Source: Hufsiella ginkgonis (GTDB lineage: Bacteria > Bacteroidota > Bacteroidia > Sphingobacteriales > Sphingobacteriaceae). From it: a DNA stretch of 64,000 nucleotides. The notes under the pieces are model-generated. The model did no database searches. It was not told the origin of the DNA and saw only the letters and a program-made list of their open reading frames with translations. Below are positions 17,412 to 45,591 of the stretch, piece by piece. The position numbers and the translations under genes were made by a program. Position 1 is the first letter of the stretch. Every line of letters begins with the position of its first letter. The stretch spans positions 992,001-1,056,000 of the forward strand of contig NZ_WVHS01000001.1 in assembly GCF_009834915.1 (NCBI RefSeq), given 5' to 3'.

Positions 17412-18701
17412 ATGAATAAGCGCATACGTACAAACAGCCAATTTTATGTCGCCGGAACAAGTATAGCAGCGGCGGCCCTCTTATTTTTCTGCCTGGCGCT
17501 TAGGCCGGTACAGCAAGTAACGCCCCAGGCGTGCATCCCGCGCAGCGGATTACCTGGTTTTTTCAGGAAGCTGGAAAAAGGAAAGCCGGTAACCATCGCT
17601 TATCTTGGCGGGAGCATTACAGAGGCGCCGGGATATCGCATTCAAACCGAAGAATTTATCAGGAAAACCTACCCCTCAACGAAGCTGAAAACCATTAACG
17701 CAGGTGTTGGCGGTACGGGCTCGTATCTCGGCGTGTTCCGGCTGGGGCCTGACGTGCTGAGCCAGCGTCCCGACCTGGTATTTATTGAGTTTGCGGTGAA
17801 CGATGCCAAAGGCGATTCGCTGAAAATTTGCAACGCGGTTGAAGGCATTATCCGCCAGGTACGCCGGGCGAACAAGCATACCGATATTTGCTTCCTCTAT
17901 ACCATTTACGAACCGATGATTGCCGATTACCGGCGCGGGGTCCTTCCCGCTTCCGTGCGGTACATGGAGCAGATAGCGAAACATTACCAGCTTCCCTCCA
18001 TCAACCTGGCCTATGATGTGCTGGGGAAAATGAACAACGGAACGCTTGTTTTCCATGGTGAAAAAGATAAGAACTATGGCACGCAGGTAGTTTTCACCCT
18101 GGATGGCACACACCCGACTACAGATGGGCACCGGGTATACACGGCGACGATCGCCACGGCGTTCGGACAGCTGAAAAACAGGAAGGAAAAGTCCCGGAAA
18201 AATATCCCTCCCTTGTACGCCGGCAACCTGGACCGTACCAGCGTAGTTGCGGCTGCGTCGTTTACCCGCTATGGCAACTGGCGGCCCGGGACGGAATTGC
18301 CCGAGCTGAAACCGTTTGTAAAAAGTTTCCCTGACCTGGTGTACACCACCAGCCCGAACGACAGCCTGGTGCTCGAATTTACCGGCGACCGGCTGGGTAT
18401 CAGTGATGTGATGGGCCCATCGTCGGGAACGGCGCTCTTAAACATAGATGGCAAACCCTTCGCGCGGCAGCGCTTTGATGAGTTTACCACCTATTACCGC
18501 CGCAGCTTCTTCTTTATCGACTCGCTGGGCGGGGGAAAGCACCGCCTCACATTGAAACTGGGTAACGCACCGATCGATAAACTAAAAATGCTGCGTCCGG
18601 GCGATCCCGGCGAACGCACCCGCTACCAGCGTTACGAGCTGTACGTGGGCAACGTAATGCTCACCGGCAAAGCACTTATTAACCCTGGCACTAAAAAATG
18701 A
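17412..18701 (+). CDS. SGNH/GDSL-type esterase, first PUL1 copy
   Basis: This exported SGNH-fold hydrolase has 429 residues and probably removes acyl groups from glycans. An N-terminal membrane or signal segment (SIAAAALLFFCLAL) is followed by the catalytic blocks: Ser68 in YLGGSITEA, the oxyanion Gly in GVGGTGS, Asn in IEFAVNDA, and the Asp231/His234 pair in DGTHPTTDGH. The C-terminal 150 residues form an extra beta-rich domain (LVLEFTGDRLGISDVMGPSSG) that may bind substrate. Its stop codon overlaps the ATG of the fucosidase gene (ATGA), so the two are translationally coupled. Acetylesterase is the most likely activity, but the substrate is not known. Confidence 0.82.
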   Translation: MNKRIRTNSQFYVAGTSIAAAALLFFCLALRPVQQVTPQACIPRSGLPGFFRKLEKGKPVTIAYLGGSITEAPGYRIQTEEFIRKTYPSTKLKTINAGVGGTGSYLGVFRLGPDVLSQRPDLVFIEFAVNDAKGDSLKICNAVEGIIRQVRRANKHTDICFLYTIYEPMIADYRRGVLPASVRYMEQIAKHYQLPSINLAYDVLGKMNNGTLVFHGEKDKNYGTQVVFTLDGTHPTTDGHRVYTATIATAFGQLKNRKEKSRKNIPPLYAGNLDRTSVVAAASFTRYGNWRPGTELPELKPFVKSFPDLVYTTSPNDSLVLEFTGDRLGISDVMGPSSGTALLNIDGKPFARQRFDEFTTYYRRSFFFIDSLGGGKHRLTLKLGNAPIDKLKMLRPGDPGERTRYQRYELYVGNVMLTGKALINPGTKK

Positions 18702-20074
18702 TGATGCACCGAACGCTCAGAGCCGCCCTCGTTTGCGGCACCCTGGTCCTCCTTTGCGGCACGGCAAAGGCCCAGCTCCCGGCGGAAACACCCGGGCAAA
18801 AAGAAAGCCGCATGAAGTGGTGGACACATGACCGGTTTGGCATGTTTATCCATTGGGGGCTTTACTCCCTCCCGGCCCGGCACGAGTGGGTAAAGAACTT
18901 CGAGCGGCTCACAGACAGTGCCTACCAGAAATACTTCGATAATTTTAACCCGGACCTGTACGATCCCGACGAATGGGCCCTCCAGGCTAAAAAAGCAGGC
19001 ATGAAATACGTGGTGCTTACCGCGAAACACCACGAAGGCTTTTGCCTGTTCGACTCGAAATACACGGACTATAAATCTACCAACACGCCCGTGAAAAAGG
19101 ACCTGGTGAAACTATATGCCGACGCCTTCAGGAAACAGGGTATCCGCGTAGGATTTTACTATTCGCTGATCGACTGGCATCACCCTGATTTTACCGTAGA
19201 CCGCAACCACCCCATGCGCGACAATGCCGAAGCCCGGAAACTGAACGCCGGCAAAGACATGAGAAAATACCAGCAATACCTCAAAAACCAGCTTACGGAG
19301 CTGCTTACCCAGTACGGGCAGATCGATGAGCTTTTCCTCGATTTTTCGTACCCGGGCAAAGACGGGAAAGGACGCGATGACTGGGATTCGGAAAACCTGC
19401 TGAAACTGGTCCGCAAACTGCAGCCCCGGATCATTGTGAACGACCGCCTCGACCTGGCTGCCGTGCCCGGCGGATGGGACTACCAGACACCCGAACAATT
19501 TATGCCGCGGGAGTGGCCCGCCATCAACGGTCAGCGCGTACCCTGGGAGACCTGCCAAACGTTCTCCGGCTCGTGGGGGTATTACCGCGACGAATATTCG
19601 TGGAAAAGCACTAACCAGCTAATAGCGATGCTGGTAGAAACAGTAAGCAAAGGCGGCAACCTGCTGCTGAACGTGGGCCCAACCGCGCGCGGCGTGCTCG
19701 ACGAACGTGCACAGGAACGCCTCCAGGGAATAGGCGATTGGATGCGGTTTAACAGCCGCGCTGTTTATGGCTGTACCCAGGCTCCTGATGAGCTTGAAAA
19801 ACCTGACAATTGCCTGCTCACCTATAACCCGGAAACGCGCCGCCTCTACATCCACGTGCTCGAATGGCCGTTTAAATCGCTTTACCTGAAAGGGTATGCA
19901 GGTAAGATCAAATACGCCCAACTGCTCAAAGATGCCTCGGAGATAAAGTTCCGCACTAACACCACCCCCGGGAGCCACACCACGGAAAATACGGCCGCCA
20001 CCGACGTGATCCTCGACCTGCCGGTAAATAAACCCGATACTGCTATCCCCGTGATCGAAATCGTGTTAAAATAA
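18698..20074 (+). CDS. GH29 family alpha-L-fucosidase
   Basis: This secreted exo-fucosidase has 458 residues and should cleave terminal alpha-L-fucose with retention of configuration. The signal peptide ends at AKAQ. The family core is clear: WWTHDRFGMFIHWGLYSLPA, KYVVLTAKHHEGFCLFDS, VGFYYSLIDWHH. The expected catalytic nucleophile is Asp215 in IDELFLDFSYPG. The block GGNLLLNVGPTARGVL is also typical. The acid/base residue is poorly conserved in GH29 and cannot be placed with certainty. The start overlaps the preceding esterase stop, and an SGNH esterase follows 8 bases downstream, so fucose release and deacylation appear to be coupled steps. Confidence 0.94.
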   Translation: MMMHRTLRAALVCGTLVLLCGTAKAQLPAETPGQKESRMKWWTHDRFGMFIHWGLYSLPARHEWVKNFERLTDSAYQKYFDNFNPDLYDPDEWALQAKKAGMKYVVLTAKHHEGFCLFDSKYTDYKSTNTPVKKDLVKLYADAFRKQGIRVGFYYSLIDWHHPDFTVDRNHPMRDNAEARKLNAGKDMRKYQQYLKNQLTELLTQYGQIDELFLDFSYPGKDGKGRDDWDSENLLKLVRKLQPRIIVNDRLDLAAVPGGWDYQTPEQFMPREWPAINGQRVPWETCQTFSGSWGYYRDEYSWKSTNQLIAMLVETVSKGGNLLLNVGPTARGVLDERAQERLQGIGDWMRFNSRAVYGCTQAPDELEKPDNCLLTYNPETRRLYIHVLEWPFKSLYLKGYAGKIKYAQLLKDASEIKFRTNTTPGSHTTENTAATDVILDLPVNKPDTAIPVIEIVLK

Positions 20075-20082
20075 CCAGGGTT

Positions 20083-21471
20083 ATGCGGTCCGGATCGTAT
20101 TCTATGCTTAAAATTCTCTTCGCAGCAGCGCTCTTTGCCCAAGCCCCGTTAACCCGTGTACTGGCTCAGAACGTTTTTAAAAAGGACGATGTGGTGGTTT
20201 TCGTGGGCAACAGCATCACCCAAAACGGGGAATTTCACCACCAGGTGGCGCTGTTTTACGCTACACGATTCCCACAGGAAAAGATCAGCGTTTACAATGG
20301 CGGCGTGGGCGGTAATACCTCGGCCGATGTGATGCGCCGGATGCCATATGATATACTGGTACACCGCCCATCATGGTCGGTAGTTAAGCTGGGCATGAAC
20401 GATGTAAACCGGGAGCTTTACCTTCCGGAAAAGCAAAAAGACCCGGGACTTAAAACAGCAAAACAGCGGATGTTCGGCATTTACAAATCGAACGTAAAGC
20501 GCGTGATCGATACGCTGCTCTCCGCCCATAGCCGCGTGATCCTGCAAACACCCGGCATTTACGACCAAACCTCTACGATGCCCGCGCCAAACCTGAAAGG
20601 CCGTAACGATGCACTTGGCGACTACAGCAAATTCATCCGCCGAGCCGGTAAGGCCTACGGCTTGCAGGTGATCGATTACCGTACCATTCTTACCCGCCTC
20701 AATAAAAAACTCCAGGCAAAAGATCCTGCAGCCACTATTATCGGGCCAGACCGCGTGCATCCCGGGCCTGTGGGGCATTTCGTAATGGCCTACCAGTTCT
20801 TAAAAAGTACGGGGGCACCAAAATTCGTATCCCGCCTTTCGGCGGATGCGCGGACGCTGACCGGACAAGCGGAAAACGCCGATCTCACCGATTTAAAAGG
20901 CGACCGGCGCAACCTCACGTTTACCAGCGCCGAAAAGTCGCTCCCCTTCCCGGTTACCGCCGCCGTAGGGCCTGCGCTGCGGCTGGTCCCTTTTGTAAGA
21001 GACTTTAACCAGGAGATCCTTTGTGTTAAGAACCTCGAAAAAGGGACATACCGTTTATCCATTGATGGCATCACGATCGGCTCGTTCACTTCGGATGCAT
21101 TGTCCAAAGGCATCAACCTTGCACAGCTGCCATCAACTCCCCAGAACCGGCAGGCGCGGGAAGTGCTTCGCGTAAGCCAGGATTACTGGAAAACAGAGGC
21201 CGACCTCCGTGGGATTGCCAGTATGGAGTATAACCAGCTGCGTTCGCGGGAAAAACTCACGCCAGCTGCGGCCGCCACCCTGTACGCGCGCCTGCTGAAA
21301 GAGCCTGCCCGCGATTCGGTATCATACCGCACGCTGGTAAACCTCCAGGCTTCCTACCTTAACCTGAAAGCCCGCGAGCCTCAGCTTGAACAGGGGTTAG
21401 ACAGTTTGCGGAACGAGATCTACCGCGCAAATCAGCCGGTAAGGCATACTTTCAGCATCAACGCCTTATAG
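20083..21471 (+). CDS. SGNH/GDSL-type esterase, second PUL1 copy
   Basis: This second exported SGNH hydrolase has 462 residues and differs clearly from the first. The signal peptide may begin at the ATG at 20083 or at 20104 (MLKILFAAALFAQ) and ends near VLAQ. The catalytic blocks are Ser44 in VFVGNSITQNGEF, Gly in GGVGGNTSADV, Asn in KLGMNDVNRE, and Asp223/His226 in GPDRVHPGPVGH. The last 200 residues (helical, ending RHTFSINAL) are also found in other Bacteroidota GDSL proteins and may be accessory. It closes the PUL1 operon. Acyl removal from the glycan is inferred from fold and context. Confidence 0.83.
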   Translation: MRSGSYSMLKILFAAALFAQAPLTRVLAQNVFKKDDVVVFVGNSITQNGEFHHQVALFYATRFPQEKISVYNGGVGGNTSADVMRRMPYDILVHRPSWSVVKLGMNDVNRELYLPEKQKDPGLKTAKQRMFGIYKSNVKRVIDTLLSAHSRVILQTPGIYDQTSTMPAPNLKGRNDALGDYSKFIRRAGKAYGLQVIDYRTILTRLNKKLQAKDPAATIIGPDRVHPGPVGHFVMAYQFLKSTGAPKFVSRLSADARTLTGQAENADLTDLKGDRRNLTFTSAEKSLPFPVTAAVGPALRLVPFVRDFNQEILCVKNLEKGTYRLSIDGITIGSFTSDALSKGINLAQLPSTPQNRQAREVLRVSQDYWKTEADLRGIASMEYNQLRSREKLTPAAAATLYARLLKEPARDSVSYRTLVNLQASYLNLKAREPQLEQGLDSLRNEIYRANQPVRHTFSINAL

Positions 21472-21507: not shown

Positions 21508-21526
21508 ATTTAAAATAATTCTAAAT
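21508..21526. promoter_or_regulatory. 19-base palindrome, probable iron-responsive operator
   Basis: The sequence ATTTAAAATAATTCTAAAT is an inverted repeat around base 21517 with a single mismatched pair. The flanking T and A extend it to 21 bases. Its size and position, about 30 bases upstream of a -7 box and 66 bases before the receptor ATG at 21592, fit a Fur- or DtxR-like iron operator. A related site lies at 29682-29700. Confidence 0.55.
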
Positions 21527-21553
21527 AGTGTGTGAAAATATGGATCACATTCC

Positions 21554-21561
21554 TACTTTTG
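21554..21561 (+). promoter_or_regulatory. Bacteroidota -7 promoter box (TACTTTTG)
   Basis: The octamer TACTTTTG matches the TAnnTTTG -7 consensus of the primary sigma factor in this phylum. It would start transcription a few bases downstream and about 25 bases before the receptor start at 21592. No clear TTG -33 element is visible. Confidence 0.5.
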
Positions 21562-21591
21562 CCTCAATTTGTAATTAATCTAAATAAAGAC

Positions 21592-24012
21592 ATGAACCGT
21601 TTCTACAAAACCTTATCCTGGTGCTTTACCATCATCCTGGTATTGATTGGTATACACACTAATGCCCAGACCCCTGCCGGTTCCATTTCCGGAACCATAA
21701 CAACCAGCGATGGAAAACCTGCATCCAACGTAACCGTGGGTATAAAAAACGAGAACAAAACAACAGCCACTAAGGACGATGGCTCCTTTATCATTAAAAG
21801 CATAAAACCGGGCACTTACACACTAAAGATCTCTTCCGTAGGGCTTACCCCGCAGGAGAAAGAAGTGACCGTAACAGGTGGCGGTAAAACCGATGTCTCT
21901 TTCAAGCTCACCGAGTCGCTGGCCCGGTTAGACGAGGTAGCCATCACCGGCTATAGTGCACCCAAGCGGCAGCCGCTAGCGGTAGGTAAAACCGGGATCG
22001 CACCAAGAGATCTTCCTCAGAGTGTGCAGACCTTCGGCGCCGAAGTAATTGCCGACCAGCAGGTAAACCGCCTTGCGGATGTGCTGAAGAACGTAAACGG
22101 TGTGGCATTAGCCGAGAACCGCGGCTCCGTAAACGAGACATTCGTGGCGCGTGGTTATAGCCTGGGTACCAATAACGTACTCAAAAACGGCGTACGTGCC
22201 AACGGTGGCGGTATTCCCGAAGCCAGCACCTTAGAGTCGGTAGAAGTATTAAAAGGCAGTGCCGCCCTGCTTTACGGTGGTGTTACCGGCGGCGCAATAG
22301 TAAATATGGTGACTAAAAAGCCTAAATTCAACTTCGGTGGCGAAGTAGGGTTCCGTACCGGGAGCTATGATATGTTAAAACCTTCCGTAGATGTTTATGG
22401 CCCCATTTCTGACAAGGTGGCCTACCGCGCTATCGTGACCACGGAGAACGCCAACAGCTTCCGCGATGACGTAAAAACCCGCCGCGTGTATGTTAATCCC
22501 TCGATGTTATTCAAATTAGGCAAGAAAACCGAGCTGCTCGCCCAGGGCGATTTTCTGAAAAGCAACTATACCCCCGATTTCGGGATCGGCACGGTAGCAG
22601 GTAAGATCGCGAATATCGGTCGCGATGCTTACGTGAATACTGTTTGGGCGTATAATAACACTACTACCTCTACCATGCAGGCAAATATTACCCACCAGTT
22701 TAACGACACCTGGAAACTGAACACCATATTTGGCTACCAGGGATATCACCGTAACTATTTCTCCGCAGAGCGCCCTTTCGCCACACTCGCCGACGGGATC
22801 GCCGCCCGTAACCTTACCCGTTCAAAGTCACAGGAGTTTACTTACAATCAACAAGTTAACCTGACCGGTGCATTTAAAACCGGGTTTGTTAAACACCAAT
22901 TCCTGTTTGGCGGGGATGCGGACCAATCCAGGACCACCGCTTACAGCTTTAAGTACGATAACAATACCACAGCCTATTCTTATGGCAACATCAACCTGCT
23001 GAACCCTGCTACCTATAATACCCGCACCGATATTCCGAATACAAAGATCGTATCCGATACATTTACGCCGGTTTTCCGCATGGGCTCGTTCGTATCAGAC
23101 TTGCTTACGCTAACCGAAAAGTTCAAAGTGCTGGCCGGTATTCGTTATACCTTCCAGAAACAGCCGCGGTCCATTCTTCACAACTACGAAACGGGCGCCA
23201 CTACGCTGTCTAACAACAACATCAACAAGTCGAAAACGGAAGATGCCTGGTCGCCGAAAGTCGGCCTGATCTACCAGCCGATCAAAAGCAGCTCCGTGTA
23301 TGTAAGTTATGCCAACAACTTTACCAGCAATTCCGGCACCGATGTGAACCTTATCCCGATGACCCCGTCTGTTATCGACCAGTACGAAGCGGGTATCAAA
23401 AACGACTTCTTCGGTGGCAGGATGTCGTTTAACGTAACCTGGTATAAAATTGTGAACGATAAATTCGCGCAAACCGCATTGTTTAAGGCAGACGGCGTAA
23501 CCCCGAATGCCGATGCCAACATCAAAGAATTCAGCGGCGCTACCGCCAGCGATGGTCTTGAATTCGATGTTACCGGCAAACTGGCCAAAGGCTTAAACTT
23601 CCTCGCGGGATACAGCCACAACTATTTCCGATACACTAAAACGCTTCCGACCGGCATCACCGAAGGTGAGCGCATCATCGGCAGCACAGAGCATACCGCC
23701 AACGGCACGCTATTTTACACGTTCAGCTCCGGAAAAGCAAAAGGCTTGAAACTCGGAACTTCCGCATTTTACACCGGCAAACGCAACATGGGCTTTAACA
23801 CGCTTAAAACCGGTTTACAGCGTGGCCAGCCGGTTGAAGTGGGTGCGTTTACTACCGTAGACCTGTCTGCAGGATACACCTACAAGAGGCTTTCGGTATT
23901 AGGCAAGCTGGCTAACGTTACCGACGAGCTTAGCTACTTTGTACACGAAAACTACAGCGTGAACCCGATTCCGCCAAGAAGCTTTATGACCACATTCAGC
24001 TATAAGTTTTAA
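21592..24012 (+). CDS. TonB-dependent siderophore-type receptor
   Basis: This outer-membrane receptor has 806 residues and probably imports a ferric siderophore. The signal peptide (SWCFTIILVLIGIHTNAQ) is followed by a carboxypeptidase-regulatory-like domain (about 30-110), then a FhuA/FepA-like plug: GIAPRDLPQSVQTFGAEVI, VNGVALAENRGSVNETFVARGYS, LESVEVLKGSAALLYG. The barrel ends in the usual aromatic residue (RSFMTTFSYKF). The plug wording LPQSVQ and RGY is typical of siderophore receptors rather than of SusC. The longer reading from 21532 begins inside the promoter and is rejected. A strong terminator follows, and ApbE comes next on the same strand. Confidence 0.9.
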   Translation: MNRFYKTLSWCFTIILVLIGIHTNAQTPAGSISGTITTSDGKPASNVTVGIKNENKTTATKDDGSFIIKSIKPGTYTLKISSVGLTPQEKEVTVTGGGKTDVSFKLTESLARLDEVAITGYSAPKRQPLAVGKTGIAPRDLPQSVQTFGAEVIADQQVNRLADVLKNVNGVALAENRGSVNETFVARGYSLGTNNVLKNGVRANGGGIPEASTLESVEVLKGSAALLYGGVTGGAIVNMVTKKPKFNFGGEVGFRTGSYDMLKPSVDVYGPISDKVAYRAIVTTENANSFRDDVKTRRVYVNPSMLFKLGKKTELLAQGDFLKSNYTPDFGIGTVAGKIANIGRDAYVNTVWAYNNTTTSTMQANITHQFNDTWKLNTIFGYQGYHRNYFSAERPFATLADGIAARNLTRSKSQEFTYNQQVNLTGAFKTGFVKHQFLFGGDADQSRTTAYSFKYDNNTTAYSYGNINLLNPATYNTRTDIPNTKIVSDTFTPVFRMGSFVSDLLTLTEKFKVLAGIRYTFQKQPRSILHNYETGATTLSNNNINKSKTEDAWSPKVGLIYQPIKSSSVYVSYANNFTSNSGTDVNLIPMTPSVIDQYEAGIKNDFFGGRMSFNVTWYKIVNDKFAQTALFKADGVTPNADANIKEFSGATASDGLEFDVTGKLAKGLNFLAGYSHNYFRYTKTLPTGITEGERIIGSTEHTANGTLFYTFSSGKAKGLKLGTSAFYTGKRNMGFNTLKTGLQRGQPVEVGAFTTVDLSAGYTYKRLSVLGKLANVTDELSYFVHENYSVNPIPPRSFMTTFSYKF

Positions 24013-24031
24013 CCATACTTAACGTTTAAGT

Positions 24032-24062
24032 AAACAGCCGGACCAATAACGTCCGGCTGTTT
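24032..24062 (+). terminator. Intrinsic terminator after the siderophore receptor
   Basis: A perfect 12-base-pair stem, AAACAGCCGGAC and GTCCGGCTGTTT, encloses a 7-base loop (CAATAAC) 20 bases after the receptor stop. A T-rich stretch forms the end of the stem and continues briefly. The ApbE start codon lies only 22 bases further on, so the hairpin may attenuate rather than fully separate the two genes. Confidence 0.8.
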
Positions 24063-24083
24063 GTATGTTTGCAAAACCCGTTC

Positions 24084-25079
24084 ATGAAAAAAACAGTGCT
24101 GCTCCTATTTATGCTCACCGCGTTAACCGCCGGCGCGCAGGTGCTGAAAAAACGCACCACCAAACTGATGGGAAGTCGTTGGGACATCACGCTGGTAGCT
24201 CCCGATTCGCTCACGGCAGTACGGCATATCGATACCGTTATTGCCGAAGTGAGCCGGATCGAGCACCTGATATCCGACTGGATGCCCGGGACCCAGATCT
24301 CGCAGGTAAACAAGAACGCGGGGATTCGTCCTGTTAAAGTCGACAAAGAGGTATTTGAGCTTACCAAACGGGCACTGAACCTTTCGCGGCTAACCGGCGG
24401 CGCTTTTGATATCAGTTTTGCTGCGATGGACAGGATCTGGAAGTTCGACGGCTCGATGACCGTGATGCCTTCGGCAGAAATGATCCGCAAGTCGGTAGAA
24501 AAGGTCGGGTATAAGAACATCATTCTGGACAGCGCCCGGTCTACCATATTCCTCAGGCTGCCCGGCATGAAGATCGGCTTCGGCGCGCTTGGCGAAGGAT
24601 ATGCCGCGGATAAGAGCCGCGAGCTGATGCTGGCGAAAGGCATCAAAGCCGGGATCGTGAACGGATCAGGCGATATGAGCACCTGGGGAAAACAGCCTGA
24701 CGGCAGCGATTGGGCCATCGGGATTACCAACCCGATGCGCGAGGATACGCTCCTGGCGGTAGTTCCGCTTAAGCAGCATGCAGTAGTTACCTCCGGCAGT
24801 TACGAGAAGTTTGTGGTGTTTAACGGCAAGCGCTACGCGCACATCATCAATCCCGCTACCGGTTACCCCGCTACGGGGCTTTGCAGCGTGACCGTTTTCG
24901 GGCCGAGCGCCGAAACGGCTAACGGGTACAGTACATCGATGATGGTGCTGGGAGAAAAACGTGCAATCGCCTTTATCAGGCAATTTCCGGCTTACAGCTA
25001 CATTATCATTACCGATAAGGGGAAAATCGTTTCATCGCCGGAATTGGAATTTAAAAGAAGAAAAGTAATTACTAATTAG
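24084..25079 (+). CDS. apbE: ApbE-family FAD:protein FMN transferase
   Basis: This exported flavin transferase has 331 residues and attaches FMN from FAD to a Thr or Ser of partner proteins outside the cytoplasmic membrane. A signal peptide (VLLLFMLTALTAGAQ) is followed by the ApbE fold with MGSRWDITLVAPD, GGAFDISFAAMD, GFGALGEGYAADKSRELM, GIVNGSGDM and the FAD/metal motif HIINPATGYPATGL. The usual ADALST segment reads ANGYSTSMMVLG, so the acidic metal ligand common in the family is Asn here. The adjacent DUF2271 gene carries a matching TGAS acceptor motif. The TTG at 24069 is rejected because it would extend the signal peptide with polar residues. Confidence 0.88.
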   Translation: MKKTVLLLFMLTALTAGAQVLKKRTTKLMGSRWDITLVAPDSLTAVRHIDTVIAEVSRIEHLISDWMPGTQISQVNKNAGIRPVKVDKEVFELTKRALNLSRLTGGAFDISFAAMDRIWKFDGSMTVMPSAEMIRKSVEKVGYKNIILDSARSTIFLRLPGMKIGFGALGEGYAADKSRELMLAKGIKAGIVNGSGDMSTWGKQPDGSDWAIGITNPMREDTLLAVVPLKQHAVVTSGSYEKFVVFNGKRYAHIINPATGYPATGLCSVTVFGPSAETANGYSTSMMVLGEKRAIAFIRQFPAYSYIIITDKGKIVSSPELEFKRRKVITN

Positions 25080-25151
25080 TAATTTATTTCTAATACATAT
25101 TTAATACTTTGAAGAAATATGGATGGTAAATTTGTCATCTCATAATATATA

Positions 25152-25340
25152 TGGAAGAGCAACAATTCACATGTATTAAAAAGCGCTCATGCCATCGAAG
25201 TCAGCATTCGGATTATAGATGCATTCGTCAAACTTCGTGAGATGCTGATTAGCCAACGTGAGACGCAATCAGAACTCGCGGACATCAGGCGCAGGCTGGA
25301 TGAACATGATGCGGGCTTTGGACCAAGCCTAACCTCCTCA
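25152..25340 (+). pseudogene. C-terminal remnant of an ORF6N-domain protein
   Basis: This 258-base gap between two convergent genes carries a coding remnant without a start codon. The plus frame reads SHVLKSAHAIEVSIRII, then DAFVKLREMLISQRE and LADIRRRLDEHD. This matches the C-terminal region of ORF6N proteins, where a short SVL...AIEV block precedes an AFV.LREML helix and a coiled coil. The N-terminal DNA-binding ORF6N domain is gone, and the frame runs into the end of the convergent gene. ORF6N genes are common on prophages and mobile elements, so this is probably a scar of one. Confidence 0.5.
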
Positions 25341-27533
25341 ATAACAATCCGTCCTCACCTGGTTCCTCGACTGGTAAAAGCTCACGCCTCTGCCTGACTG
25401 CTCCATACAAATCGCGTCAAGCAGTTCCATCACATCTTTTTGCATTGCCAGCGAGCCGCAGATCATGAGGATCCCGCCGTTCTCGAAAAGCCTGGCTAAT
25501 TTATCGCCATCTCGTTGGATCAGGTGGCTTACATACTGTTTATTTCCCTCGCGGGAAAAGGCCGTATGAATGGCTGCCAGCTTACCCTCAGCGGCGCTTT
25601 GCTCAAGGAAATCCTGGTACAGGTTATAAGTGAGCCGCTGCCTGAAGCCACAATACAGCTGGACCGGTATCTTCTTCCTGTTCTGGCTGATCATCCCGAG
25701 GAAGGGAGCGATACCTGTTCCGTTCGAGATCATCACCACCTGCGGCACACCACCCGGAAAGTGAAAATGCTCATTTTTAACGATGCGGGCGCGGATCTTT
25801 TGTTCGACGGTTAGACCGTGCAGGAACCCTGAGCCCAGTCCCTCCGGGTGAAGCCGTACGCTTAAGCGGATCTCCTTGCCCACCACCCCGATAGAATAGA
25901 GCCGCTCCCGGTGGTCATTTGCCGGGTAAATAGCCAGTAGGTCGCCGGACCGTACACGCAGCCTGCTCCCGATCTTAAATGCCATGGTAAAGGTTCCGCC
26001 GGCCTGCGCTGCAGGGGTGATCTTTGTGACGGTCAGGCTTTCCATTCGCGCATTCGCGGCAAGGTCCAATCCTGTGAGCATCGTTACCGGGATGCCCGAC
26101 TGTTGCGACCAGGCTTCGGCCCAAAGGCCGAAATGCTCCGGTGATTTATCATCGACGGTATGAATATCGGTCAAGGCCGTCGCCCACGCCTGGTGCGATA
26201 GCAACCGGTTCACCTCGAACGCGTATTTGCAAAAATCCGGGTACGCATGCGAGCCAAATCCAAGTACCGAATAACTTATAGGTTGCGATTGCGGATACCT
26301 TTCGAGCAGTTTTGCCAGGCGCGTGGCGTTGGTAGGAGCATCTCCAAGTCCGTAAGTGGCGGTCATCACCACCAGGTGCTCCGCTTTCGGAAACCGGGCA
26401 TAGTTATTCAGTTCCGTTACGAACGATTTCTCGCCAGCCTTCAATAACTGCTGGTTCAACGCCTGCGCAAAACGGAAAGTGCTTCCATTTTCTGAACCAA
26501 CCAGGATAATGAACCGGCTTTCCGCTGCGGTGAATTTATTCCTGGTACGGTTTCCCAGGCGCTTAAAAGTGATGGCAAAGCCCGAATAAATAAAAAACAG
26601 GATGTTGCCCGATGCCAGTGCCAGTATGATGGCCCATACGCTGCTGCCGCGACCGGTATGGAGATCGAGGCTCAGGTTAGTGTAAAACACCGCGGCGGGA
26701 TATTTCACTTCGCCAAGGATGTCGCCGGTAACCTGGTTCACGGTAACTTCGCGATCCCTGAGCTTCAGGGTATAGTAATCCTCCACATCTTCTGAGAAAG
26801 GAAATTCGATCGATTCAACTTCAGAGAGCTTTGTTTTCTTAAAAATGGCGAACTCCGCAGGGCTCTTTACAGGTTTGGCTTGGATGACGTCAAAATCTAC
26901 CTTCGGCGACACGTGCGCCGTATCAAAAAACCCGAAACGTGCCAGCGATAGGTAAGTTCCCGTCAGCGCAATGATCATGATCGGGATGAGCGACCAGCGT
27001 CCGAGCACCACGTGGTAAAACTGCGCGAAGTTTTCCCGCACGATCGGCGTAAAAAAGCGTTTTAACCCGCGTTGCCGCTGAATGACAAGCATCGTTCCCG
27101 ACACGGTGATGAGCAACAGCAGGAATGCGGTAAGCCCGATAAAGAACCGGCCCGCTTCATGCAAAAAAAGTGAGCGGTGCAGCGCCGTTACCCATTGAAA
27201 AAATTCGTTCTCTTCGCCGGGATGGCCGAGAACTTTCCCGGTTAGCGGATCGACGTAAACGGAAGGGTTCTTTTCACCTGCACCGGTACCTTTTGCCTGT
27301 ACGAACTGGTTCACGTCCACCGAAAGTGCCGTAATGCCCGGATACCTGGTGCGAAGTGCCGGAAGTGCCTGCGCGAGCGTTACATCGCTGAAATTGTTTA
27401 CCCGGTAAGGCTGCATTTTCTCGGTCACGGGGCCGAAAGCGAGTATGATACCGGTAAGCGCTGCGAGAGACAGCAATAAAAAAGAAGATACAGCCAGTGC
27501 TAAGTGGCTGTATCTCCAAACTGAAATTGTCAT
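25338..27533 (-). CDS. PepSY transmembrane protein fused to flavodoxin and flavin reductase domains
   Basis: This 731-residue cytoplasmic-membrane redox protein probably passes electrons from NADPH across the membrane to a periplasmic acceptor such as ferric iron or a flavinylated partner. The N-terminal half is a PepSY-associated membrane region with about four helices (for example SFLLLSLAALTGIILAFG and FFIGLTAFLLLLITVSG) and periplasmic loops. A flavodoxin domain begins at IILVGSENGSTFRFAQAL with TATYGLGDAPTNA. A ferredoxin-NADP reductase-like part carries RLYSIGVV (flavin), ISNGTGIAPFLGMI (NADPH) and ICGSLAMQKDV. The same fusion occurs beside siderophore receptors in other Bacteroidota. 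It is the last gene of a three-gene operon. Confidence 0.88.
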   Translation of the reverse strand: MTISVWRYSHLALAVSSFLLLSLAALTGIILAFGPVTEKMQPYRVNNFSDVTLAQALPALRTRYPGITALSVDVNQFVQAKGTGAGEKNPSVYVDPLTGKVLGHPGEENEFFQWVTALHRSLFLHEAGRFFIGLTAFLLLLITVSGTMLVIQRQRGLKRFFTPIVRENFAQFYHVVLGRWSLIPIMIIALTGTYLSLARFGFFDTAHVSPKVDFDVIQAKPVKSPAEFAIFKKTKLSEVESIEFPFSEDVEDYYTLKLRDREVTVNQVTGDILGEVKYPAAVFYTNLSLDLHTGRGSSVWAIILALASGNILFFIYSGFAITFKRLGNRTRNKFTAAESRFIILVGSENGSTFRFAQALNQQLLKAGEKSFVTELNNYARFPKAEHLVVMTATYGLGDAPTNATRLAKLLERYPQSQPISYSVLGFGSHAYPDFCKYAFEVNRLLSHQAWATALTDIHTVDDKSPEHFGLWAEAWSQQSGIPVTMLTGLDLAANARMESLTVTKITPAAQAGGTFTMAFKIGSRLRVRSGDLLAIYPANDHRERLYSIGVVGKEIRLSVRLHPEGLGSGFLHGLTVEQKIRARIVKNEHFHFPGGVPQVVMISNGTGIAPFLGMISQNRKKIPVQLYCGFRQRLTYNLYQDFLEQSAAEGKLAAIHTAFSREGNKQYVSHLIQRDGDKLARLFENGGILMICGSLAMQKDVMELLDAICMEQSGRGVSFYQSRNQVRTDCY

Positions 27534-27547
27534 GCGCGCGGGGGGCG

Positions 27548-28042
27548 TTAATTAGGGCTAAAACGTACGTACCGGATATATCCCCCCGCGCCTTCGGTCT
27601 TTGCCGAGAGGCTCTCTGTCGTTAAAGGGATCTCGATATCCTTTACATTGTACTTTTTATCTTCTACCGCAGCTTCGAACCGGATCTTATACCCGGCGTT
27701 AATCTTCGAGTTTTCGAGCTCGATCACATTTACGCTGCGGTCGCCGCCGGCTACAGAAGCACCGGTAATGGCGCTGATATCGGTACGTTTTTGCTTGTAA
27801 AAGGCGAACCAATCTTTCAGGGTGTTGTACCATTTTTTGTCGGAACCCAGCACATACAGCGTTTTCTCATATCCTCCTTTGGGGTTGATGAGTGAGATCA
27901 CCACATAAGCTTCTTCGCCCATGTAGCTGGTCATCTGCACCATACACTTATATTTTGCGGTTTGCGCCCGGGAAACGGCAGGAGCGGCAAATAACAGGGC
28001 CAGCGCTAAAAGGCCTGCTGAATAAAATTTAGATAGCATCAT
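27548..28042 (-). CDS. DUF2271 exported protein with flavinylation motif
   Basis: This small periplasmic protein of 164 residues has a signal peptide ending near VSRAQ. It matches DUF2271 by length, by the YKCMVQMTSYMGEEAYVVIS strand region and by the segment ITGASVAGGDRSVNVIEL. The TGAS at residues 93-96 resembles the site where ApbE esterifies FMN to Thr or Ser, although the residue three positions before Thr is Ser, not Asp. It is probably a flavin-carrying electron shuttle between the PepSY reductase and an outer acceptor. Its ATG shares a base with the upstream stop (TAATG), so it is coupled to the ankyrin gene. Confidence 0.75.
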   Translation of the reverse strand: MMLSKFYSAGLLALALLFAAPAVSRAQTAKYKCMVQMTSYMGEEAYVVISLINPKGGYEKTLYVLGSDKKWYNTLKDWFAFYKQKRTDISAITGASVAGGDRSVNVIELENSKINAGYKIRFEAAVEDKKYNVKDIEIPLTTESLSAKTEGAGGYIRYVRFSPN

Positions 28043-29634
28043 TATTTGAGGAAATTAACAGATACATTATTTTTTGTGAGCACTTCGTTTTCGCTGGCGA
28101 GGTCGAACGCGGTCTCTTTAAAATTGGTGACGGCATCTTTCTTCGCACCGATAGACAGCAGGTACTTTAAGATCACATCGTCTTTAGAAACCAGTGCCGC
28201 TTTGTGCAGCGCGGTAAGACCTTCCCTGTTTTTCGCATTTACGTCGATACCGAGACTCTCCAGGCGTTTCAGCAGCGGGAGGCTGTTTTTGGCTGCGGCT
28301 AAATGTATCAGCGTATTTCCGTCGGCCTGCGGGGCGGTAACGTTAAGGCCTTGCTGTTTGAGGATGTTTAGCTTATTATCAAATTCGATTCCGCTTGCCG
28401 CAACTGCGGAACCACCGCCCTGACCGGCACCCGGGCCGCCACCTTGTCCTTCACGTCCGCCAGCGCCCGGTCCGCCCTGAGCCCCGGCGCCTCCGCCACG
28501 CGGACCACCGCCACCCATCACAGACATAGGCGCTTCCAGCACATAGTAAGCCAGGTTGTTCCCTTTTTTATCGAGCACATTCACTTTCGCCCCCTTGTTA
28601 ACCAGGAAATTCACTACTTCAGAAGAGTTGCCGCGCACCGCCATGGTAAGCGCGGTAAGGCCCAGCTGGTTCGCCTGGTTGATATTCTTAACCGCAGGCA
28701 GCAGCAGGGCAAGTGTAGCAGTGTCGCGGTTTGACGCCGCCGCATTCATAAATACGGTGTTGCCGTCTTCGTCTGCTTTGTTAACATCCGCACCCTTTGA
28801 CAGGAAATACTTGATCAGCTCTGCCTGTCCCGGACGACGAACAAGTCCATGCAGCGCATTTTCGCCGGTTTTGCTAACCACGTTCGCTTTGATCCCCAGG
28901 CTCTCCAGATACTGGAACAGCTCTATGGCGTTGGCAGTTAAACGTCCGCCCTGTGCAGCCATTAAAATGGCATTGGGATTAGGTTTCACCCCTTTCTCCA
29001 GTAATTTCTTTAACAGCTCTATGTTACCTGAACGGGCAGCGTAACCGAAGGCGTTGTTTCCTTCTGCGTCTACACTATTCAGGCTCATTCCCTTAGAAAT
29101 GAAGTAGTTGGTGAGGGCAAAGTCCTTGTCTGCAGCGATAGACGCCAGCAGCAGGTTGGCGCCCGTGCTGTTAAGCTGCTTTTTCAAGTCGACACCATGT
29201 GCAATATAAGCTTCATAAACCTTCGTGTTTTGCTGAGATCCGGCGCCAAAAAACAACGGAGTGGTACCGCGGCTGTCCTGTGCGTCGATCTTTGCGCCTT
29301 TGTTAAGCAGGTATTCTACAATTTCCACATTGCCCCGGCTGGTAGCCCAATGCAGGTAATTACGACCGTCGTGCGTTAATTTATCAACGGGGTTACCGGG
29401 CTGGCCGAGCAAATAAATGATCGAGGCGTTAGGCGCAGAAGCATTTATAGCCAGTGTTACCGGGTCGAAACTGCTTCCGTTCGGCTGGGAAGGGCTGCTC
29501 CCTTTATCGATTTCAGCTTTTACGGCTGCAACATCAGGCGAACTTTGCCAGAACGCGCTTTCTAACAACCTGTTCTGCTGCGCCCCGGCTTGCAATGAAA
29601 TTAAGGCTAAAACAGCGAATATTAATTTTTTCAT
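28042..29634 (-). CDS. Exported ankyrin-repeat protein
   Basis: This 530-residue protein has a Sec signal peptide (MKKLIFAVLALISLQAGAQ) and many ankyrin repeats. Examples are GRNYLHWATSRGNVEIVEYL, GTTPLFFGAGSQ, GNTVFMNAAASNRDTATLAL and GLTALHKAALVSKDDVILKY. The solenoid is interrupted near residues 376-415 by a Gly-rich stretch with few other residue types. Ankyrin repeats bind proteins, and exported examples in this phylum are often found beside TonB receptors and PepSY reductases, perhaps as scaffolds. It is the first gene of the operon with the DUF2271 and PepSY genes. A probable iron operator lies 48 bases upstream of its start. Confidence 0.82.
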   Translation of the reverse strand: MKKLIFAVLALISLQAGAQQNRLLESAFWQSSPDVAAVKAEIDKGSSPSQPNGSSFDPVTLAINASAPNASIIYLLGQPGNPVDKLTHDGRNYLHWATSRGNVEIVEYLLNKGAKIDAQDSRGTTPLFFGAGSQQNTKVYEAYIAHGVDLKKQLNSTGANLLLASIAADKDFALTNYFISKGMSLNSVDAEGNNAFGYAARSGNIELLKKLLEKGVKPNPNAILMAAQGGRLTANAIELFQYLESLGIKANVVSKTGENALHGLVRRPGQAELIKYFLSKGADVNKADEDGNTVFMNAAASNRDTATLALLLPAVKNINQANQLGLTALTMAVRGNSSEVVNFLVNKGAKVNVLDKKGNNLAYYVLEAPMSVMGGGGPRGGGAGAQGGPGAGGREGQGGGPGAGQGGGSAVAASGIEFDNKLNILKQQGLNVTAPQADGNTLIHLAAAKNSLPLLKRLESLGIDVNAKNREGLTALHKAALVSKDDVILKYLLSIGAKKDAVTNFKETAFDLASENEVLTKNNVSVNFLK

Positions 29635-29681: not shown

Positions 29682-29700
29682 AATAAGAATTAGTCTAAAT
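29682..29700. promoter_or_regulatory. Second iron-box-like dyad, ahead of the ankyrin operon
   Basis: AATAAGAATTAGTCTAAAT is an imperfect dyad around base 29691, with matched AGA/TCT core arms. Its right half, TCTAAATA with the next base, is identical to that of the site at 21508-21526. The shared half-site and the iron-related genes on both sides suggest one common regulator. Confidence 0.4.
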
Positions 29701-36535: not shown

Positions 36536-37255
36536 ATGCGAAAAATCCTTTTGCTGCTATTAGCGATTGCCGTGGCAGTTTCCGGTTGTGAAGAGTCAGC
36601 CACAACGGATCAGCCCTCCACAGACGGGTTAGTGGGTTGGTGGCCGTTCGATAATAACAGCAACGACCTGTCGGGAAAAACGAATCATGCCGTTTTAAGA
36701 AACGGAACAGCTTATGCGCCGGACCGCAACGGGTTATCTACCGGTGCGGTTATACTGGATGGGGTCGACGATTACGTGAGCTTCCCGTCAGGCAGCAGCT
36801 CTTCGTTAAATATTACCGGCGATTTTACCGTGTGCTTTTGGGTAAAGACCATTGATAATTCGGCCGGCCTTGTATCTTTTGGCGATAATGTTAGCAATGC
36901 GCCCCTTGCGGCCGGGTACCTGTCTGCCTTAAATGGAGGGAACGTGGGCAACGGCAAACTGGGGATCGGCTTACGCGGATCATGGAACACGCACCCCCCG
37001 GTTATTGCTGATGACAAGTGGCACTTTATAGCTTACGTTTTAAGAGATAACCGGATGGGCATCTATATGGATAACTTTTACGGTTGGGAGTTTCCGGCTA
37101 TCCAGCCCCCTTTATCATGGAATGGCAACCGCGTTGTTGGCTGCAGGAACGACCTGATCATGGGCGACACCTGGAACTATAAGGGAGCATTCGACGATCT
37201 GAGGGTTTATAACCGGGCGCTTACCAGCGGCGAAGTGCTCGCGCTGGCGAAGTGA
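36536..37255 (+). CDS. LamG/concanavalin-like lipoprotein
   Basis: This 239-residue surface lipoprotein has a lipobox, AVSGC, at residues 14-18. The single domain is a LamG-like jelly roll, with GLVGWWPFDNNSNDLSGKTN, VILDGVDDYVSFPSG, DFTVCFWVKT and FDDLRVYNRALTSGEVLAL. All are typical of the Laminin_G_3 family, which binds glycans or proteins. It is the first gene on this strand before the deacetylase and probably belongs to the xylan locus as a binding protein. Confidence 0.82.
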   Translation: MRKILLLLLAIAVAVSGCEESATTDQPSTDGLVGWWPFDNNSNDLSGKTNHAVLRNGTAYAPDRNGLSTGAVILDGVDDYVSFPSGSSSSLNITGDFTVCFWVKTIDNSAGLVSFGDNVSNAPLAAGYLSALNGGNVGNGKLGIGLRGSWNTHPPVIADDKWHFIAYVLRDNRMGIYMDNFYGWEFPAIQPPLSWNGNRVVGCRNDLIMGDTWNYKGAFDDLRVYNRALTSGEVLALAK

Positions 37256-37356
37256 CGGACGATTTTTTAAGATCCGCCCTCATTAAGCTAAAATTAATCG
37301 TTTGTTATTGCCGCACACTTATTTTCACAAAAATAATCCGCGGGAAGACAAACAGA

Positions 37357-38355
37357 ATGAACGCACGCTTTTTTTTCCTGCCCGGTTTCTTCTTCATGGC
37401 GGCATGCTTCCCTGCCTGGGGGCAGGAAAGTTCTGACAGCACGGCTGCTTATATCGCCCGGTTTAAAGACGATCGTAAGGCGGCGATCAGTTATACTTTC
37501 GACGACGGCATAAAAGACCAGTACGAACTGGCCCGCCCGATGCTGAAGAAGAACGGGTTTAAAGCTACCTTCTTCATTATCCCCTCCCAGGTGGTACCGC
37601 GGGAACCGGTAAATGCGGCGCAAAACAAGTACGCCGGCAGCCGCATTACCGAACCGCAGCTAAAAGAAATGGCTGATGAAGGGATGGAGATCGGAAACCA
37701 TAGCTGGTCCCACGCTAAAAGCCTGGTCCAGGCAACCGATGCGGAGCTCCTTGCGGAGATCGTCAAAGCAGACAGTGCCATTTTAAAGATGACCGGGGTG
37801 AAGCCCATTTCGTTTGCTTACCCCTGGAACGCCTTTGATGCCCGCACACAAGCTGCCGTGCTAAAAGACCATGTTGCCGCACGGGAGACACAATTCGGAG
37901 TGGGTACCCGGTTTACCGCGGCAGCCGGAAACGCATGGATAGACGGGCTGATCCGGAAAAGGACCTGGGGAACGGCCATGATCCACGCCATTTCGTTTGG
38001 ATTCGATGCCCTGGAAAATCCCGGTGTGCTATCAGACCACCTGCAGTACGTAAAACAGCATGAGCGCGATATCTGGGTGACCACTTTCGGCGCCCTGGCA
38101 CAATACCGGCTGGCGCGCGAAGCAACGGTACTAAATGCAGTCATTAAAGGCAACACGGCAATGATCAGGCTCACTCAAAAGGCCCCGGGCACTTTTTTAC
38201 ACGTACCTCTTACCGTTGTTCTCCCGGTAAAGGGAACGGTTCGGCGCGTAAGCGCAAAGCAAGGCCGAAAGTCAATCCCCGCAAGTTACAATAATGGCTG
38301 TTTACTGATAGACGCACTACCCGACGGGCGTGAAGTGCGGGTACAATGGAATTAA
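37357..38355 (+). CDS. Polysaccharide deacetylase (CE4)
   Basis: This exported CE4 deacetylase has 332 residues and should remove O- or N-acetyl groups with a divalent metal. The signal peptide ends at AWGQ. The NodB domain shows motif 1 as YTFDDG (Asp49 and Asp50), motif 2 as HSWSH (His115 and His119) and motif 3 as SFAYPWNAFD. A C-terminal domain of about 90 residues (PGTFLHVPLTVVLPVKG) follows. The ORF could be read from 37252, but this adds an untypical N-terminus before the signal peptide. Beside a GH10 xylanase, acetylxylan is the likely target. Chitin or peptidoglycan remains possible. Confidence 0.86.
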   Translation: MNARFFFLPGFFFMAACFPAWGQESSDSTAAYIARFKDDRKAAISYTFDDGIKDQYELARPMLKKNGFKATFFIIPSQVVPREPVNAAQNKYAGSRITEPQLKEMADEGMEIGNHSWSHAKSLVQATDAELLAEIVKADSAILKMTGVKPISFAYPWNAFDARTQAAVLKDHVAARETQFGVGTRFTAAAGNAWIDGLIRKRTWGTAMIHAISFGFDALENPGVLSDHLQYVKQHERDIWVTTFGALAQYRLAREATVLNAVIKGNTAMIRLTQKAPGTFLHVPLTVVLPVKGTVRRVSAKQGRKSIPASYNNGCLLIDALPDGREVRVQWN

Positions 38356-38361
38356 CTAACG

Positions 38362-40338
38362 ATGATCATGCACTCTCTTTCTTTTCGTTCGCTGTGCTTA
38401 CGCACGATATTGTTTGCCGTAGCTACCGGTTTCATCCCCGTAAGCGTCGCCGCAAAAATTCGCTTACCGGCGTTGGTAGGCAACAATATGGTACTGCAAC
38501 GGGAACTTCCAGCACCGGTGTGGGGTTGGGCCGAACCCGGCGATACCGTTTCTATTTCGTTTAGAGGCCGCGCGTATAAAACCATTGCGGCGGCCAATGG
38601 CAAGTGGGTCACCCGTTTGCAAACCTCGAAAGCGGGCGGTCCTTTCGAAATGGTGATCAGGACCCGGCAGGAAGAGGTGGTGATCAACAATGTGCTTGTC
38701 GGCGATGTATGGTTGTGTTCCGGGCAGTCGAACATGGTGCTCGATTTCAATAACAGCAGGGTGAAAGCCTTGTATGCCGACGATATCGCCGCCTCGGCAA
38801 ATAGCCAGGTCCGGCAAATCCTGGTCAATCGTACCTACAGCTCGTTTCCGCAGCAAAACTTTAAAAGCGCCGGCTGGAAAGAAGCAGGCCCCGCAAACCT
38901 GGCCGCTTTTTCTGCCGCAGCCTACTTTTTCGCTACTAAATTGTATCAAAAATACCATGTGCCTATCGGACTGATCAATTCGAGCGTTGGCGGCACCGTG
39001 GCAGAGGCGTGGACCAGCGAACAGGGGCTCCGGAAATTGCCGCAGTTTGCCAATGACCTGGCCTTTCTCAAAGATACGATCGCTTTGCGCCGAAAGATCG
39101 AAGCCTCCAAAACGGCTATCGATGAGTGGGACAAGCTCGTCCGCGAAAAGGATAAGGGCAGTGATAGCTCGCCCGGAAAGTCCATGCCGCATCCGGGTTT
39201 CTGGAAACCGTCGGATTTTGAAGGAAATTATGGTGTGGTCTATTTCCAAAATGAAATCAATATTCCAGCAGGTTTTACCGGCGACGCCAAACTCTTCCTC
39301 GGCCAGATCGACGATGCGGACATTACCTGGTTTAACGGAACAAAGGTGGGCGAGAGCACCAATCGCGATGCGGTGAGAAATTATGTAGTACCGGCCGCGC
39401 TGATCAAACCCGGAATAAATAGCCTGACCGTCCGCGTGCTCAACTATAACGGCACGGGCGGCTTTTTCCCGGGCAAATCCTTATCGATCGAAATCGGCGG
39501 CAATCTCCTGTTACTAAACGATGAATGGAAATACAAGGACGGCTTTGTAACGAAAAACGTTCGCCCGGGAAATTACGGCCCTAACAACCTCCCTTCAGCG
39601 TTATACAACGCCATGATCGCACCCCTGGTACCCTACGGCATTAAAGGAATGCTATGGTACCAGGGCGAGTACAATGCATCCCGCGCAGCGGAATACCGGC
39701 AACTGCTGCCTGCGTTGGTTACAGACTGGCGTACAGCCTGGGGGCAGGGCGATTTCCCGGTAGTCATCCAGCAATTGCCGAACTTTAAATCCCCCAGGGA
39801 TAACCCGGCAGACAGCGAGTGGGCAGAACTTCGGGAGGCACAGGCGAAAACGGTCGCATCGCTGCCTGATATGGCGCTGTCTGTAGCGATCGACATCGGC
39901 GAGGCCGACGATATCCACCCGGTGAACAAAAAAGACGTTGGCTATCGAATGGCGCTGGCGGCGCAAAAGATCGCCTACCACCAACCTGGAACTGTTACTG
40001 CCGGGCCGGAATTTCAAAAGATGAATATCCGGGGAGAACGTATCGAGCTTGCCTTCGGCCAGGGCGGGGGGTTGACAACGACCGACGGCAAAGCGCCCAC
40101 GAACTTCGCCATTGCCGGGGCCGACCGGAAATTTGTATGGGCCAGCGCCAAAATCAAAGGTAAAAAAGTGATCGTATGGTCGCCCGATGTGAAACAACCC
40201 GTATCTGTACGATATGCCTGGGCCGATAACCCCGGCGGATGCAACCTGGTTAACCGCGAGGGGCTTCCGGCATCACCATTCCGTACCGATGATTGGCCGG
40301 GGATGACGGAAGGAAAGCTCTATCAACCGGGTAAATAG
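38362..40338 (+). CDS. Sialate O-acetylesterase-type (SASA) esterase
   Basis: This 658-residue exported SGNH esterase of the SASA family is often an acetylxylan esterase in plant-glycan loci. The signal peptide ends near SVAAK. Ser123 lies in CSGQSNMVLDF, and Asp517 with His519 in ADDIHPVNKKD complete the catalytic residues. Between residues about 280 and 390 a galactose-binding-like beta domain is inserted (LFLGQIDDADITWFNGTKVG), which is usual for the longer members. The start lies 6 bases after the deacetylase stop, so the two deacylating enzymes are made together. Confidence 0.88.
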   Translation: MIMHSLSFRSLCLRTILFAVATGFIPVSVAAKIRLPALVGNNMVLQRELPAPVWGWAEPGDTVSISFRGRAYKTIAAANGKWVTRLQTSKAGGPFEMVIRTRQEEVVINNVLVGDVWLCSGQSNMVLDFNNSRVKALYADDIAASANSQVRQILVNRTYSSFPQQNFKSAGWKEAGPANLAAFSAAAYFFATKLYQKYHVPIGLINSSVGGTVAEAWTSEQGLRKLPQFANDLAFLKDTIALRRKIEASKTAIDEWDKLVREKDKGSDSSPGKSMPHPGFWKPSDFEGNYGVVYFQNEINIPAGFTGDAKLFLGQIDDADITWFNGTKVGESTNRDAVRNYVVPAALIKPGINSLTVRVLNYNGTGGFFPGKSLSIEIGGNLLLLNDEWKYKDGFVTKNVRPGNYGPNNLPSALYNAMIAPLVPYGIKGMLWYQGEYNASRAAEYRQLLPALVTDWRTAWGQGDFPVVIQQLPNFKSPRDNPADSEWAELREAQAKTVASLPDMALSVAIDIGEADDIHPVNKKDVGYRMALAAQKIAYHQPGTVTAGPEFQKMNIRGERIELAFGQGGGLTTTDGKAPTNFAIAGADRKFVWASAKIKGKKVIVWSPDVKQPVSVRYAWADNPGGCNLVNREGLPASPFRTDDWPGMTEGKLYQPGK

Positions 40339-40637
40339 GTCCCGGACTTCCGTCGCGTCAAACTTTGGTCTAAAAAATCTCCGCGAGCGTAATTTCATGA
40401 AAAATCGTATTTACCCGTAAACCGGGTGGTGAACGCGCGCGCCCGTCCCTGAACATTTCATGCAATTCTTATAAACATGACCGATAGAGATTTGCACAAT
40501 TTTGATACCGGCGCTCGCTAATCATTACCACTTTTACAATCGCTAACCAATTAACTGTAGCACCCGGCGGCGGTCTTCCTATGACCTTTACCGGACTGCG
40601 TAACCATGATGACCAATTACCAACTAAACCAAGCAGT
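40339..40637. promoter_or_regulatory. Leader region ahead of PUL2 susC
   Basis: These 299 bases contain no gene. A stretch near 40489-40504 (TTTGCACAATTTTG) resembles a -33/-7-type promoter only partly. No copies of the TGGGANCGNTCCCA dyad of PUL1 are seen. The likely regulator, the HTCS at 47467, has no recognisable site here. Confidence 0.25.
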
Positions 40638-43727: not shown

Positions 43728-43745
43728 CATTACATAGAAAACACA

Positions 43746-45569: not shown

Positions 45570-45591
45570 CTACTAAAAGACAAAATTGATT

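Follow-up and report, generated by a model that had tools for sequence, protein, structure and literature searches.

In this study, a gene cluster of the Bacteroidota species Hufsiella ginkgonis was found that likely encodes an extracytosolic reductase under iron-starvation (Fur) control, which would serve ferric siderophores through a flavinylated DUF2271 protein; we put the probability of this reading at roughly 0.7. The cluster lies in a window of 64,000 nucleotides, the whole stretch of DNA that was analyzed. According to the ORF list and family profiles, it consists of two converging transcription units (21532-29634), with the receptor and ApbE genes on the plus strand and the ankyrin, DUF2271, and PepSY genes on the minus strand (Table 1). 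A sequence-only reading of this DNA had listed these five genes, and all of them proved to be intact ORFs in place with matching families. The siderophore receptor scores 265.5 against a TIGR01783 cut-off of 223.5; its start codon is uncertain and is likely the ATG at about 21592. On the plus strand, 71 bases separate the receptor from ApbE. On the minus strand, the three genes stand tightly head to tail, and the ankyrin stop overlaps the DUF2271 start (TAATG). Signal-peptide-like N-termini can be read from the sequences of ApbE, DUF2271, and the ankyrin protein, and, as in the published class, whose PepSY-like proteins are recognized by PF03929 or PF16357, a PepSY-like protein is clustered with a flavinylation gene. 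The genome (5.2 Mb, 99.99% complete) encodes one ApbE and one DUF2271, and no FMN_bind protein was found in its 5.2 Mb; with a single copy of each, this ApbE can be matched to this DUF2271 as enzyme and substrate. The order ankyrin-DUF2271-PepSY recurs across Bacteroidota, indicating that the arrangement at this locus is not due to chance.

Table 1. Features of the iron locus, numbered from the first base of the window
Feature	Position	Strand	Evidence
Fur box before siderophore receptor, ATTTAGAATTATTTTAAAT	21508..21526	-	18/19 bases of published Riemerella Fur box
TonB-dependent siderophore receptor, first gene of plus-strand operon	21532..24012	+	TIGR01783
ApbE (FAD:protein FMN transferase), Asn-type, predicted secreted	24084..25079	+	PF02424, 266.6 bits
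PepSY_TM haem protein with fused cytosolic flavodoxin and CysJ-like FAD/NAD(P)H reductase	25338..27533	-	PF03929, 121.6; PF00258, 53.1; PF00175, 30.4
Secreted DUF2271 protein, predicted FMN carrier	27548..28042	-	PF10029, 127.7 bits
Secreted ankyrin-repeat protein	28042..29634	-	Ank_2, 149 bits
Fur box before ankyrin-DUF2271-PepSY operon, ATTTAGACTAATTCTTATT	29682..29700	-	learned motif

In the proposed mechanism, NAD(P)H would pass electrons to FAD and from there to FMN in the cytosolic reductase-flavodoxin part of the PepSY protein, and electrons would traverse the inner membrane via haems on four invariant PepSY histidines. They would then reach an FMN held covalently on Ser96 of the periplasmic DUF2271, where the genome’s only ApbE is predicted to attach it. 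The DUF2271 flavin may in turn reduce the ferric siderophore (or released Fe3+) that the neighbouring TonB receptor delivers, with release of Fe2+, and the ankyrin protein may scaffold or dock periplasmic DUF2271. A route from NADPH to a flavin on a periplasmic protein and on to the ferric siderophore had already been suggested by the sequence-only reading; with a membrane haem protein ahead of flavinylated DUF2271, it fits the genes, the published class (PMC8238504), and the Fur boxes. The acceptor residue had been misplaced.

The motif of DUF2271 is SAITGAS (S90 to S96), with TGAS at positions 93-96, so the [S/T]GA[S/T] element is present. The canonical ApbE acceptor motif is D-x-x-[S/T]-G-A-[S/T], in which Asp stands six residues ahead of the acceptor. 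This Asp is absent from DUF2271, where Ser90 takes its place, as had been noticed earlier. FMN is attached to the last, C-terminal residue of the [S/T]GA[S/T] element (PMC12052999); the predicted acceptor is therefore Ser96, and Thr93, the residue named before, is ruled out. In the fumarate reductase of K. pneumoniae, replacement of the motif Asp by Ala had only a minor effect (PMC12052999). Among 63 related loci, the motif is conserved as T in 60, G in 62, and A and a final S or T in all 63. A fold search with the DUF2271 model gave no match below E 0.001. Cys33, just past the signal peptide region, is invariant in 51 aligned sequences of the family. One solitary DUF2271 (L089 6985-7476), located without ApbE, PepSY, or ankyrin genes, has a degraded motif (IVGET) and is possibly a non-flavinylated paralogue.

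The ApbE of the locus belongs to the common family of the Listeria, Vibrio, and E. coli FmnB/ApbE enzymes. It matches PF02424 and has the active-site Ser237 and His253, but not the Asp found at FmnB Asp301: in the phmmer alignment, Asn280 corresponds to Asp301, Ser237 to Ser257, and His253 to His273. The earlier observation of Asn at the usual acidic metal ligand was thus confirmed. The same Asn occupies this site in 52/52 Bacteroidota ApbEs that are linked to a stand-alone DUF2271 and have a readable site; one further linked ApbE (L038) is split between two frames and falls outside this count. Asp was found in all 29 clearly unlinked Bacteroidota ApbEs, and it is likewise kept by two ApbEs that are linked to DUF2271 on Proteobacterial plasmids. 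The two oddities of enzyme and motif are therefore real; they had been presented as features of the window, yet they are family-wide, and a peculiarity of the window or a sequencing error is ruled out for Asn280 by its presence in all readable linked Bacteroidota ApbEs. Judged from these sequences, the Asp-to-Asn ApbE is a Bacteroidota variant. Asn-type enzymes occupy one side of one tree branch, whose support is weak (0.46). When 63 Asn-type and 49 Asp-type sequences were compared (the type being defined by the residue at the Asp301 site), positions 94 and 283 also split the two types almost fully, and Ser237 and His253 were constant in all. Two ApbE-DUF2271 fusions of Bacteroidota (L084 5881-7392 and L086 6974-8491) have Gly at the Asp301 position (AGALAT).

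The type of ApbE and the motif of DUF2271 vary together. In clusters with an Asn-type ApbE, the motif Asp is replaced by S, N, or T in 57/61, and the acceptor is Ser in 61/61. When the whole genomes of 20 further loci were searched for the ApbE type, all 12 with an S or T motif encoded an unlinked Asn-type enzyme and all eight with a D motif encoded Asp-type enzymes only; among the genomes searched, none combined an S motif with an Asp-type ApbE alone. This otherwise full partition speaks against the view that the motif Asp-to-Ser and the ApbE Asp-to-Asn changes were separate neutral events fixed by descent, a view that bears solely on the matching of enzyme and motif and leaves the reductase model alone. 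Neutral descent nevertheless has a probability only a little short of even. The remaining four clusters pair a D motif with an Asn-type ApbE, indicating that the Asn-type may tolerate both motif kinds, and on the tree of the ankyrin and PepSY proteins the ApbE type switches only twice; of two independent pairs on the tree, one matches the direction and the other shows no difference. With just two changes, the match between the ApbE and DUF2271 changes is suggestive, not statistically proven. A stronger proposal is that a re-specified Bacteroidota ApbE, with Asp197 replacing the lost Asp, and an Asp-free, Ser-accepting DUF2271 form an orthogonal pair, and that flavinylated DUF2271 and the secreted ankyrin protein, as its scaffold, form an obligate complex; this is put forward tentatively, with the odds against it.

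An Asn at the Asp301 site might cripple ApbE, since Asp301 of FmnB coordinates the two Mg ions and alanine there greatly reduces or abolishes activity (PMC8906456). The Asn-type enzyme could then be dead or a mere FAD hydrolase or binder, with DUF2271 using a non-covalent flavin or none, and the fixation of Asn in the 63 Asn-type sequences (so defined) and in every readable linked Bacteroidota ApbE agrees with this. However, Thr284 and Asp197, like Ser237 and His253, are invariant in 63/63 Asn-type ApbEs, the partners keep [S/T]GA[S/T], and the Asn-type is the sole ApbE in the genome of the locus and in several others. A dead enzyme is not expected to keep these sites and an acceptor, and this explanation is considered improbable. 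The equivalents of FmnB Ser257, His273, and Thr305 are all kept, and the differences from FmnB are Asn for Asp301 and the invariant Asp197 for FmnB Asn216, a residue that contacts Asp301. Position 197 is mostly Glu in Asp-type enzymes. In the Asn-type, Asp197 probably supplies the acid at the metal in place of the Asp301 equivalent.

The iron control of the locus was read from its operators. Unsupervised de novo motif learning on 62 regions that precede the ankyrin gene gave a 21-base palindrome, the core of which is the same sequence as the Fur box of Riemerella, ATTTAGAATTATTCTAAAT. In Riemerella, also a member of Bacteroidota, Fur bound promoters with this box in EMSA (PMC5609570). The Fur-like motif scored above 8 in 34/62 ankyrin upstream regions, compared with a mean of 0.28 in shuffles that preserved base composition only, the 62 regions coming from related genomes. 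The window contains five Fur-box matches at three or fewer mismatches, counted over both strands, against 0.42 expected, and a strict-pattern scan of the whole genome returned four distinct sites only. Both receptors of the genome above the TIGR01783 cut-off carry the motif (15.4 at the locus receptor; 12.5 and 11.6 at the two sites of the other), and the remaining 18 TonB-type receptors score at most 6.3. A Fur homologue is encoded in the genome. These data suggest that both operons are probably under Fur/iron control, and the boxes link the reductase with siderophore uptake by evidence other than gene order. The two Fur-box-like sites of the second siderophore receptor lie upstream of it at L193 1008-1028 and 1064-1084 (G000:C19:874707 and 874763). 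Another Fur-box-like site, with one mismatch, lies just upstream of a gene (L161 4358-4378; G000:C12:692857) that by eye resembles ccmE and looks like part of a cytochrome c maturation operon.

The boxes also bear on the possibility that the reductase works on a different extracytosolic target (copper, quinone, or envelope repair) and adjoins the receptor by chance. The receptor is not always adjoining, being beside the cluster in a minority of relatives (9/63 clear cases), and similar DUF2271-PepSY units on Proteobacterial plasmids adjoin metal-resistance genes and two-component systems; but both operons here, and the ankyrin operon of roughly every second relative, are preceded by Fur boxes, leaving another acceptor only a small chance.

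Exactly four histidines of the PepSY domain (10, 119, 174, and 292) are fully invariant in 21/21 PepSY domains, as many as a FoxB-like pair of bis-His haems would need. A search of PDB sequences with the PepSY profile gave no match, FoxB (PDB 7ABW) included, so the haem sites are predicted from the Pfam family and the invariant His.

The sequence-only reading had listed the ankyrin protein and overlooked that DUF2271 has no partner more constant in the phylum. An ankyrin gene is present at 61/63 DUF2271 loci; at every locus where the two genes are complete, it immediately precedes DUF2271 on the 5' side. Among 296 evenly sampled Bacteroidota genomes, 22 have a DUF2271 above the Pfam cut-off; an ankyrin orthologue (E <= 1e-40) was found in 20 of these 22 and in none of the remaining 274, a co-occurrence with a hypergeometric p of 4e-29 in a calculation that ignores relatedness. 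The two exceptions are the genomes of the ApbE-DUF2271 fusions (L084, L086), which have no adjoining ankyrin gene; for stand-alone DUF2271 the count is thus 20/20. Four Proteobacterial plasmid clusters are without the ankyrin gene, and a Spirosoma plasmid carries the complete Bacteroidota set. At two loci (L007, L026), ankyrin-DUF2271 pairs occur with no adjoining PepSY reductase. The ankyrin protein is modelled with confidence (pLDDT 89.7) as a solenoid in which residues 371-410 form a Gly-rich, disordered loop, and a fold search with the model matched only generic ankyrins and DARPins. Most likely, the protein acts as a periplasmic scaffold or docking partner of DUF2271. No co-mention of “DUF2271” and “ankyrin” was found in the literature searched, which omits most subscription journals.

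The core of ApbE, DUF2271, and PepSY near TonB receptors has been published, and a system of this kind is therefore already known (PMC8238504). Meheust et al. (2021) reported 2833 PepSY clusters with DUF2271 and 231 with a TonB receptor, and proposed iron or siderophore reduction for PepSY/DUF2271 clusters; the DUF2271 of Amantichitinum was flavinylated by its cognate ApbE, and a T to A change in the motif abolished flavinylation (PMC8238504). Those clusters resemble the locus in their core genes, DUF2271 as ApbE substrate, NAD-binding PepSY proteins, and TonB receptors in some; they are Fur-repressed in Shewanella and Caulobacter, as the Fur boxes suggest for this locus (PMC8238504). Unlike them, the locus has an ankyrin protein, which is not mentioned there, an ApbE without the metal-binding Asp, a motif without Asp, and Ser as acceptor (PMC8238504). 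FoxB/HiuB (PDB 7ABW; PMC12424826) likewise combine a PepSY_TM-type protein with an adjoining TonB receptor and Fur control, and periplasmic siderophore reduction through two haems has been proposed for them (PMC12424826). To this the locus adds a fused cytosolic flavodoxin-reductase, a periplasmic carrier that is predicted to be flavinylated, and an ankyrin protein.

The new observations are the Fur boxes, the constant ankyrin partner, the Asp-to-Asn ApbE common to linked Bacteroidota, and the co-varying motif. They add a Fur link and an undescribed, constant secreted ankyrin partner to the PepSY/DUF2271 flavin reductases. The joint loss of the ApbE metal Asp and the motif Asp in one clade is a natural test of both, and a second orthogonal pair of ApbE and motif, if true, would be useful for flavin tagging. 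Flanking the iron locus in the window (18698-21471 and 36536-47268) are, to judge from the sequence, genes for secreted hydrolases (alpha-L-fucosidase-like, SGNH-like, and xylanase-like) and a SusC/SusD-like pair, which probably form a polysaccharide utilization region.
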